Source: a bacterium (GTDB lineage Bacteria > SAR324 > XYD2-FULL-50-16). Taken from it: 64,000 nt of DNA. The DNA is taken from the NCBI GenBank assembly GCA_018829445.1, contig JAHJTV010000009.1:28967-92966 (forward strand), read 5' to 3'. The position numbers and the translations under genes were made by a program. Positions 34,866-38,236 of the stretch are shown here, piece after piece. Below the pieces are notes generated by a model that did no database searches, was not told the DNA's origin, and saw only the letters and a program-made list of their open reading frames with translations. How positions within the stretch are numbered: position 1 is the stretch's first letter; each line of letters opens with the position of its first letter.

Positions 34866-35037
34866 TCTTATCCGCAATACAACCTGTCGATTCCACATTA
34901 CGTTAGCAACGGATCAGGTGGAGATCAACAAAGCCTGGAATCGGTGATTGAAGCCTGGCAGATAGGACGGGTTGAGCTGAAAAAACAAACGAAAAACTGT
35001 TCGCAGCACTGGCGGATCTCGGTTTTGAGGTTTAATT
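34866..35037 (+). pseudogene. hsdM: Remnant of the C-terminus of a type I R-M methyltransferase subunit
   Basis: Open frame from 34866 reads SYPQYNLSIPHYVSNGSGGDQQSLESVIEAWQIGRVELKK, then a frameshift to TNEKLFAALADLGFEV* ending at 35037; YNLSIPHYV resembles the HsdM C-terminal YNLNISRYV motif. Confidence 0.6.
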
Positions 35038-36165
35038 ATGAAAGAAAAATCACCGTTAAACACAATCAGAAACAAACAGAACTTTGAGGAATTGGCCAGA
35101 TCAATCCAGCAAGTACATCATGAACTTGCGACTCAGGCCGGGCATGCTGTAAATACCTGTCTGACAATGCGGAACTGGCTGATTGGTTGTTATATTGCCG
35201 AGTACGAGTTGAATGGAGCAGATCGGGCTCGTTATGGTACAGAAATACTTAAAGATTTGGCGGATCGATTGAATGTTTTAAAAGTGAGAAACAGTAACCG
35301 TCGCCAGTTATATGACTACTTGAAGTTTTATCGCTCTTATCCTCAGATTGTGCAGACAGTGTCGGCACAATCTCAAGCACTACTTCCTGCTCGTGTATTA
35401 GCAAATATAGAGAATGCGCCGATAGCGTTGGAAAAGTTGTCGATTCATCCTGATAAGCTTATTAGCAGGTTGTCTTACAGTATGTTCAGATTGTTGGTTG
35501 AGATAGAAGATGAAACCAAACGCAGATTTTATGAAGTCGAATGTATACAAGGAAACTGGTCTGTCCGGGAACTAAAACGGCAGATTAACAGTCTGTATTA
35601 TGAACGCTCCGGCCTATCGATAAATAAGGAAAAATTATCTGAATTGGCTCAAACAGATACAGAAACAGCCACTTCAACGCTTGATATACGAGATCCTTAT
35701 GTATTTGAGTTCTTGGGTTTAAAACCCAGGGAAGTGATGAGTGAATCACATCTTGAAGATGAGTTACTGGACAAAATTCAGGATTTTCTTTTGGAGCTGG
35801 GACACGGATTCTGCTTCGAAGCGCGACAAAAAAGGATTATTATTGGAAAATCCTATAATTTTGTGGACCTGGTGTTTTACCACCGTATACTAAAGTGTCA
35901 CATCCTTGTGGAATTGAAACTTGCAGAGTTCAATCATGAAAACATCGGTCAACTTAATACCTATGTAAACTGGTATCGCAAAAACATGATGACTGAAAAT
36001 GATAATCCGCCGATTGGCATTCTATTATGCACAGACAAAGACCACGCTTTGGTCGAATACGCACTGGCCGGGATGGATGACAAATTGTTCGTTTCCAAAT
36101 ATCAACTTGAACTACCGAAGAAAGAAGAAATGCTGAGGTTTATTGAAGATAATTTAAGAATTTAA
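35038..36165 (+). CDS. PDDEXK nuclease domain protein (DUF1016/YhcG family)
   Basis: N-terminal YhcG-like helical domain; C-terminal nuclease LELGHGFCFEARQKRIIIGKSYNFVDLVFYHRILKCHILVELKLAEFNHENIGQLNTYVNWY. Confidence 0.93.
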   Translation: MKEKSPLNTIRNKQNFEELARSIQQVHHELATQAGHAVNTCLTMRNWLIGCYIAEYELNGADRARYGTEILKDLADRLNVLKVRNSNRRQLYDYLKFYRSYPQIVQTVSAQSQALLPARVLANIENAPIALEKLSIHPDKLISRLSYSMFRLLVEIEDETKRRFYEVECIQGNWSVRELKRQINSLYYERSGLSINKEKLSELAQTDTETATSTLDIRDPYVFEFLGLKPREVMSESHLEDELLDKIQDFLLELGHGFCFEARQKRIIIGKSYNFVDLVFYHRILKCHILVELKLAEFNHENIGQLNTYVNWYRKNMMTENDNPPIGILLCTDKDHALVEYALAGMDDKLFVSKYQLELPKKEEMLRFIEDNLRI

Positions 36166-36166
36166 A

Positions 36167-36223
36167 CCACGGAAGACACAGAAATTTTAAACTTGTTTTC
36201 AGTGCTTTCCGTGTCTTCCGTGG
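36167..36223. repeat. Long inverted repeat CCACGGAAGACACAGAAA / TTTCCGTGTCTTCCGTGG
   Basis: 17/18 complementary arms, 21-nt loop, immediately after the DUF1016 stop codon. Confidence 0.8.
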
Positions 36224-36388
36224 GCGGGAATTATGAGAAGATGGAAAATTTGTTAACAACCGGCCCATAAAAACCGTGGAAGATGGGGAAACTTAAAGAC
36301 TATCAAAACCCGTCAGATAATAAAATACAACTTAATTAAGAACTGATCACGAAATTGAGTTGTTACCATGGCAATCCAATTATCCGAA

Positions 36389-36643
36389 AAACAAAAAAAG
36401 AAGGCTGGCAGATTGTTAAATTTGGGGAGATCGCAAAGAATATTTCAGAACGCTTAGAACCCGTTGAAACAGATCTTAAAATTTATAGGGACAAGCGGTA
36501 ACATGGTAAAAATCAACAAACTAAATTTAAAATCGGTACCCATACCAGTTCCAGATAAAGACGAGCAGAAAAAAATTGTGTTAGTATACCAGGCTTTTTA
36601 CCAAAAAAGGTTAAAATTGAGAGATCAAATGATTAATTGTTAA
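36389..36643 (+). pseudogene. hsdS: Degenerate type I R-M specificity subunit, N- and C-terminal fragments fused by internal deletion
   Basis: KEGWQIVKFGEIAKNISERLEPVETDLKIYRDKR* (ends about 36501), then MVKINKLNLKSVPIPVPDKDEQKKIVLVYQAFYQKRLKLRDQMINC* (36503-36643); typical HsdS start and IPVPxxxEQKxIV tail with the recognition domains missing. Confidence 0.75.
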
Positions 36644-36791
36644 AAGATACGGAATTGTATCTTTAACAGTTTTCTGCAATAAACATTCAACCAAACATAT
36701 AATATCATCATAATTCATGAAGCCGGAATTGACCACTGAATCAGGTGATAGCACACTTTCAAATTCCTTTGATATGCTGTAACCGATGTAT

Positions 36792-36922
36792 ATGAAGGAT
36801 TGGGTGAAGCATTTGTGTGTGTTTCTGAGTTTGACGGGTCGCGATCTTTTAGAACATGCGGGAAAATCACTCATGAACAGGCATTAGAAGAAGCTCAAAT
36901 TGAATACGAGAAATATAATTAA
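36792..36922 (+). pseudogene. Frameshifted C-terminal remnant of a RhuM-like protein
   Basis: MKDWVKHLCVFLSLTGRDLLEHAGK followed, in another frame, by ITHEQALEEAQIEYEKYN*; resembles the RhuM C-terminal pattern DW..L..FL...R.IL..AGKISHE.A...A..EY.KY. Confidence 0.65.
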
Positions 36923-36928
36923 GCACGG

Positions 36929-37516
36929 TTGCAAATGCCCACGGAAGTAGAAAAACATTTAATTGAGGCGGAAAAGGAAATCAAAAAGCTTTTGGACAAA
37001 AGAGAGAAAAATGTCTTTCAACGAACAAAACACCATCGAAAAGCACTTATAGATTTCCTTAGCGGGAAGCCGGTTTCCATCAGGACTAAAGCGCTCAAGG
37101 AAGAATCAGAAGCCTATTCCAAAAGTTCGGAATTGAACTGGAATTATGTTCAGGGTGAAAAACTGGCTTTACACGACAAACAACCGCAGGATGTATTTGT
37201 CGATACCTGGTTGAAAGAATCCATCTGTCGTTTGAATAAAACGATTGCAAAACAACCGGATCTGGCTGACGAAGTGATTCATCGTATGCGTGGCGTCTTG
37301 CTGGAGGCTAATTACAGTGGATTAGTCCGGGCTAATGAGATTTTTTATGACTGGTTGTCGGGGCGTACCCCCATGCCATTGGGAAAAAACGGTGAGCATA
37401 TAACCATCCATCTGATCGATTTTGATAACCCGGGGAACAATCATTTTTTTATCAGCAGAAAAGTTCAGTTTTCCGGTTCCAGGGACGCATATTTTGACAT
37501 GGTTCTGTTTTCTTAA
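36929..37516 (+). pseudogene. hsdR: N-terminal fragment of a type I restriction endonuclease subunit R
   Basis: ELNWNYVQGEKLALHDKQPQDVFVDTWLKESICRLN...ITIHLIDFDNPGNNHFFISRKVQFSGSRDAYFDMVLFS*; HsdR_N-like (cf. IDFDNPENNHF...RPDIVLFVNG), only 195 aa. Confidence 0.75.
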
Positions 37517-37726: not shown

Positions 37727-38236
37727 ATGAAAAATCCGATTAAAAACTGTTATTGGGTGGTGCCGGATCGCTTTCTGGCCGGAGAATACCCGGGTGATTT
37801 GCACGACCTGACGCCCAACACAAAAATCGAATCCCTGCTTGATGCGGGGATCACCTGTTTTATTGACCTCACTGCTGAGGAAGATGGACTGGACCCCTAT
37901 TATCAGCTACTTGAGCAAAGATCCGACCTGTCTGTTCAATATAAACGATTTTCAATAGCCAATTATTCGATTCCCACCTCCCGGGAGCAAACCGTGACTA
38001 TTCTTGATGAAATCGACAGGATTCTTGAAAGTAGTGGAAAAGTCTATATCCATTGCTGGGGAGGAATTGGCAGAACCGGAACCATGGTCGGATGCTGGCT
38101 CTCCAGGCATGGTTATCCGGGAGCAAAAGCGCTGGAGCAATTGGGAAAGCTATGGAAGCAATGTCCCAAATCCAGAAGACTTAAATCTCCCGAAACATCG
38201 GAACAGGAGCAGTACATAACAAACTGGTCAGAATAG
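37727..38236 (+). CDS. Protein-tyrosine/dual-specificity phosphatase-like
   Basis: VYIHCWGGIGRTGTMVGCWL contains HCxxGxxR (HCWGGIGR). Confidence 0.92.
   Translation: MKNPIKNCYWVVPDRFLAGEYPGDLHDLTPNTKIESLLDAGITCFIDLTAEEDGLDPYYQLLEQRSDLSVQYKRFSIANYSIPTSREQTVTILDEIDRILESSGKVYIHCWGGIGRTGTMVGCWLSRHGYPGAKALEQLGKLWKQCPKSRRLKSPETSEQEQYITNWSE

Follow-up and report, generated by a model that had tools for sequence, protein, structure and literature searches.

The 64,000-nucleotide stretch analysed here (the window) carries, between positions 34866 and 37516, the remains of a type I restriction-modification (R-M) operon arranged around one complete gene. In order, and all on the plus strand, these are the C-terminal tip of HsdM (34866–35035), an intact DUF1016/YhcG gene (35038–36165), the N- and C-terminal tips of HsdS (36394–36498 and 36488–36640), a tail of RhuM (36783–37009) and an N-terminal piece of HsdR (about 37130–37516). 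An earlier note, made from the letters alone, had described the region as a type I island in decay with a single intact gene, that of a DUF1016/YhcG nuclease, and this description is borne out by the profile matches, the clean frame of 375 codons and the broken neighbours. No known RNA families were found in the island region, and a promoter search there gave nothing above chance level. Just downstream of the debris, positions 37727–38236 encode a dual-specificity-type phosphatase (PTP-SAK, PF22784, E 2.8e-17) that also matches PF22785 (Pfam description: polymorphic toxin system phosphatase).

The DUF1016 gene starts with an ATG 2 bases past the HsdM stop and encodes, in one open frame, a DUF1016_N + YhcG_C protein of the PD-(D/E)XK nuclease type, with matches to PF06250 (185.9 bits, E 5.5e-55, cut-off 32.5) and PF17761 (91.8 bits, cut-off 32.8). 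The PADLOC profile PDC-S02 covered residues 11–373 (414 bits, E 1.2e-124). The active-site pattern E-D-E(I/L/V)K is present as E261, D277 and E292-L-K294, and E261, D277 and K294 are invariant across 80 homologues. With both Pfam domains and the catalytic residues in place, the product is the intact 375-aa protein that had been claimed. No solved-structure homologue was found by sequence, and the AlphaFold model is of low confidence (mean pLDDT 60, nuclease domain mostly below 50). Neither the nuclease nor the HsdR piece has a close relative on the viral contigs searched. Directly 3' of the gene lies an inverted repeat (36167–36223) predicted to form a hairpin, with 18-bp arms (CCACGGAAGACACAGAAA...TTTCCGTGTCTTCCGTGG, 94% complementary) and a 21-nt loop. 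Elsewhere in the 7.67-Mb genome the arm sequence is never matched in full, and one site matches it with 2 mismatches.

Upstream of the nuclease, the HsdM tip reads PQYNLSIPHYV...ELKKQTKN in one frame (core 34890–34997) and continues as KLFAALADLGFEV to a stop in another (34994–35035), that is, with one frameshift. Across the six frames of the window, it was the top match of an HsdM C-terminus profile (E 0.011, next match 3.3), built from HsdMs mostly of operons with related HsdRs, and the match runs through the motif YNLSIPHYV. Pfam, NCBIfam, tblastn against plasmids and a scan over 52 genomes from the class gave no match to the tip. It is accepted here on the strength of the profiles built from relatives of the same R-M type. 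A pattern search of viral DNA for the tip gave a single match, in an unrelated protein, and low-stringency tblastn returned noise and was discarded. The methyltransferase catalytic domain (NPPF/Y) is absent at the island, where the C-terminal tip alone is left.

HsdS is reduced in a similar way. Its N-terminal tip (EGWQIVKFGEIAKNISERLEPVETDLKIY) is the best match in the window, over six frames, of an HsdS N-terminus profile and is weak when taken alone (E 0.17). The C-terminal tip matches Methylase_S above the curated cut-off (E 8.6e-6, profile positions 118–158) and was also picked up by an independent whole-genome scan with PF01420. The two tips are fused, nearly all of HsdS having been deleted between them, and a stop codon ends the second. 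Both target-recognition domains are absent. The frameshifted hsdM remnant and the two tips of hsdS, as read earlier from the translations, were thus recovered with profiles, the N-tip of HsdS more weakly than the C-tip.

The RhuM tail consists of three consecutive pieces, 36783–36884, then a frameshift, 36857–36919, then an in-frame stop, and 36923–37009, and nothing else of the full-length domain is left. PF13310 matched the tail under its cut-off (E 6.8e-4, 19.4 bits, cut-off 33.7). The three pieces are 59%, 55% and 49% identical to an intact RhuM that adjoins hsdR in a related genome, and the two results together support the frameshifted RhuM-like tail of the earlier reading. In an operon of the related genome G013 with the order hsdM-hsdS-rhuM-hsdR (L134), RhuM ends EYEKFH..QLDAPTEVEKHFIEAEKELKQ, and the corresponding end in the window reads EYEKYN-stop-ARLQMPTEVEKHLIEAEKEIKK. 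This comparison indicates that the start of the open reading frame first taken for the N-terminal 195 aa of HsdR is in fact the end of RhuM. The frame (36923/36929–37516) is a chimera, with the RhuM C-terminus in its first 25–40 codons or so and homology to HsdR from about 37130, the RhuM tail and the HsdR piece sharing one frame. An N-terminal piece of HsdR is therefore present, but it spans only about 37130–37510 and not the whole frame. It matches HSDR_N (E 8.9e-12, profile positions 17–133 of 198, then a stop) and TIGR00348 (E 2.8e-9), with 31–38% identity to plasmid HsdRs. In the alignment, the homology ends right after FDMVLF, ahead of the ExK of the nuclease motif, so that the first 17 or so profile positions, the ExK and the entire motor domain are lacking.

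Together, these data show, at the level of sequence, that type I modification (HsdM, HsdS) and restriction (HsdR) are destroyed in the island. Several kb of hsdM, hsdS, rhuM and hsdR are gone, and because HsdM, HsdS and HsdR have been destroyed by large deletions and a few frameshifts or stops, the operon has lost its capacity for type I methylation and restriction. The order of the remnants had been likened to that of R-M operons with accessory genes, in agreement with the intact operons found elsewhere. Among these are hsdM-DUF1016-hsdS-hsdR operons (as in L007/L067); among the loci found here, DUF1016 and RhuM never occur together in one locus.

The host assembly (7.67 Mb, 122 contigs, 5% estimated contamination) was searched for other hsdM and hsdS genes, a check that the earlier note had proposed, and five other type I systems were found (on C22, C59, C67, C75 and C95). 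The one on C22 has the order hsdR-hsdM-DUF1016-hsdS and carries its own DUF1016, and the one on C75 is hsdM-hsdS-rhuM-hsdR. In this last system (L100, G000:C75, 3555–3690, minus strand), the RhuM C-terminus lies in another frame while the type I operon is otherwise complete. The island was not found in two sister genomes; the empty site could not be demonstrated, as close counterparts of the flanking genes are missing from them. Over the 58 genomes examined, the top DUF1016 homologue outside the host genome has 49% identity, and the homologues of the genus and family are only distant. The nearest relatives of the nuclease are in Nitrospirota (71% identity, tree support 100/86), a distance at which saturation of synonymous sites is to be expected. 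This distribution, with the island missing from two sister genomes and its nuclease closest to that of Nitrospirota, points to a horizontal acquisition of the island.

The genomic context of DUF1016 was compared over the 80 nearest loci, which come from many phyla. Full or near-full type I genes lie near about 19 of the 80, with hsdM directly upstream in most of them. The commonest state, and that of most of the 80, is a DUF1016 with no detectable type I neighbour; because some contigs are short, this class is an upper bound on the solitary copies. DUF1016 without type I neighbours occurs on plasmids as well as on chromosomes. Type I fragments lie beside DUF1016 in 6 of the 80 loci. The clearest parallel to the window, and an independent one, is L055 (9470–11280), where an HsdM C-tip of 89 aa, an intact DUF1016 and an HsdR C-tip of 43 aa follow one another. 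L072, L036, L020 and L049 are weaker cases, those of L049 and L036 resting on short HsdM tips. Upstream of DUF1016 in L036 (9556–9984), an apparent four-helix-bundle (S23/IVS-like) protein is fused to a putative HsdM C-tip of roughly 37 aa. On the DUF1016 tree, the window copy groups with L003, an operon, and L013, a debris locus (support 100/86). The context labels change 20 times on this tree, and the cases of an intact gene beside debris stand on separate branches. The combination of a whole DUF1016 and broken type I neighbours thus recurs in a few unrelated bacteria, in a sample ascertained through DUF1016 and so biased towards intact copies. Survival beside debris is not universal, since DUF1016 itself lacks its first 50 or so residues in L013, the closest relative with debris, and is frameshifted in L005. 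DUF1016 was also observed between pglX and pglZ of BREX loci (L035 and L071, both among the 80, and L159, on the Methylomonas koyamae plasmid pLM6, NZ_CP023670.1), that is, directly behind the adenine methylase gene in BREX type 1 as in type I operons. A literature search found no paper naming DUF1016 between pglX and pglZ of BREX.

The earlier note had left two explanations for an intact nuclease among broken neighbours: either the decay is very recent, or the nuclease itself is under selection. None of the 88 near-invariant sites of the nuclease (columns conserved at 97% or more) is changed, and all four catalytic residues are intact. In simulations of unconstrained drift, a divergence of 1.5% left zero changes in 2.9% of cases and one of 2% in 1.5%; compared with these simulations, the absence of change at the 88 sites limits unconstrained drift of the nuclease to below about 1.3% (interpolated). 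Lesion counts point in the same direction. The recognisable debris, about 1,015 bp, holds 3–5 small lesions (the HsdM frameshift, the RhuM frameshift, the RhuM stop and possibly an HsdS frameshift and stop), compared with none in the 1,125 bp of DUF1016, and the island has also undergone about 5 large deletions. Conserved sites and lesion counts therefore favour selection on the nuclease over recent decay.

The competing explanation, in which no part of the island works any longer, its decay is young and DUF1016 is intact by chance, the few lesions having fallen elsewhere, is tentative and appears clearly the less probable, but it retains real weight. At the lesion rate of the debris, the probability of a lesion-free DUF1016 is 0.004–0.04, which is not negligible. 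The HsdR piece (381 bp) has no internal lesion either, and the changes at its conserved sites (3/13) lie within the range of intact homologues (0–6 of 13–17), so that recent decay keeps some probability; as a drift control this piece is weak. L013 and L005 show that DUF1016 itself can decay. On the other side, 3–5 small lesions and about 5 large deletions have accumulated while the nuclease, with its drift bound of about 1.3%, changed at none of its 88 near-invariant sites.

We consider it probable, on balance, that the locus is a dead, horizontally acquired type I island whose accessory nuclease gene survives on its own as a candidate for defence. An ancestral operon with the order hsdM-DUF1016-hsdS-rhuM-hsdR would have been gained horizontally; large deletions and a few frameshifts and stops would then have wrecked hsdM, hsdS and hsdR, leaving the DUF1016/YhcG gene whole with its catalytic residues. 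The nuclease would most likely still be under purifying selection and act as a stand-alone DNA endonuclease, the alpha-helical N-terminal domain presumably serving for binding or partnering and the C-terminal PD-(D/E)XK domain for DNA cutting. Its role could be single-gene defence, as PADLOC proposes for PDC-S02, or DNA processing. Alternatively, it might work with the methylase and specificity subunits of the five other resident type I systems. A broader proposal, which we regard as speculative and rather unlikely in its full extent, is that DUF1016 is a transferable nuclease cassette placed directly behind adenine-methyltransferase genes of different defence systems (type I hsdM, BREX pglX). 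Such a cassette would work in the absence of its operon and be retained by selection, time and again, once the operon has died, possibly borrowing resident methylase/specificity complexes.

A dead type I island with a surviving accessory gene is also a better account than one in which DUF1016 was never part of the operon and landed, as a later single mobile gene, in older R-M debris. The plasmid and chromosomal copies that lack type I neighbours, the 20 context changes on the tree and the hairpin without another full copy in the genome would agree with such an insertion. However, the ATG lies 2 bases past the HsdM stop, exactly its position in intact operons, and no long terminal repeats flank the nuclease gene itself, which makes this origin improbable. 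An assembly artefact, with frameshifts or even deletions arising as metagenome assembly errors, is very improbable: in so fragmented an assembly (122 contigs, contamination estimated at 5%), base errors could make small frameshifts, but they cannot remove several kb of hsdM, hsdS, rhuM and hsdR, the reading frame of DUF1016 has no breaks, and the same architecture is seen at L055, in another genome.

The function of the widespread DUF1016/YhcG nuclease family has yet to be established. Loci in which a whole DUF1016 gene lies among destroyed R-M partners are natural experiments that bear on a stand-alone versus an operon-dependent role, and the place of the gene behind adenine methylases in type I and BREX operons is a testable hint on its partners. 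Of greater interest, as side results of this analysis, are the recurrence beside debris and the position in BREX operons, within the limits set by ascertainment through DUF1016.

YhcG was predicted in 2005 to be a PD-(D/E)XK nuclease with a helical N-terminal domain and an E-D-E(I/L/V)K active-site pattern, and an association of the family with a type I cluster was noted at that time for Methanosarcina acetivorans (PMC1189080). In E. coli, YhcG was linked to HsdMRS and McrABC, and deletion of yhcG shows synthetic lethality with replication mutants (PMC2672614). The window protein has both domains of this family (PF06250 + PF17761, COG4804) and its active-site pattern, whereas the type I neighbours of the window copy are broken. 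It matches PDC-S02, a candidate class of single-gene phage defence for which a literature search of titles and abstracts found no reported experiment, and is intact while its R-M partners are not; in contrast to PDC-S02 as such, the R-M debris shows the probable origin of this copy. The remnants stand in the same order as the genes of type I operons with accessory genes (L007/L067; L134), but the window has no functional HsdM, HsdS or HsdR. BREX type 1 loci (pLM6, L035, L071) carry a DUF1016 from this same family immediately behind the adenine-methyltransferase gene, whereas the remnants beside the window copy are type I and not BREX genes. Compared with these systems, the locus appears to be an ordinary but well-preserved case of a decayed R-M operon from which an accessory nuclease has survived, one that may work alone.
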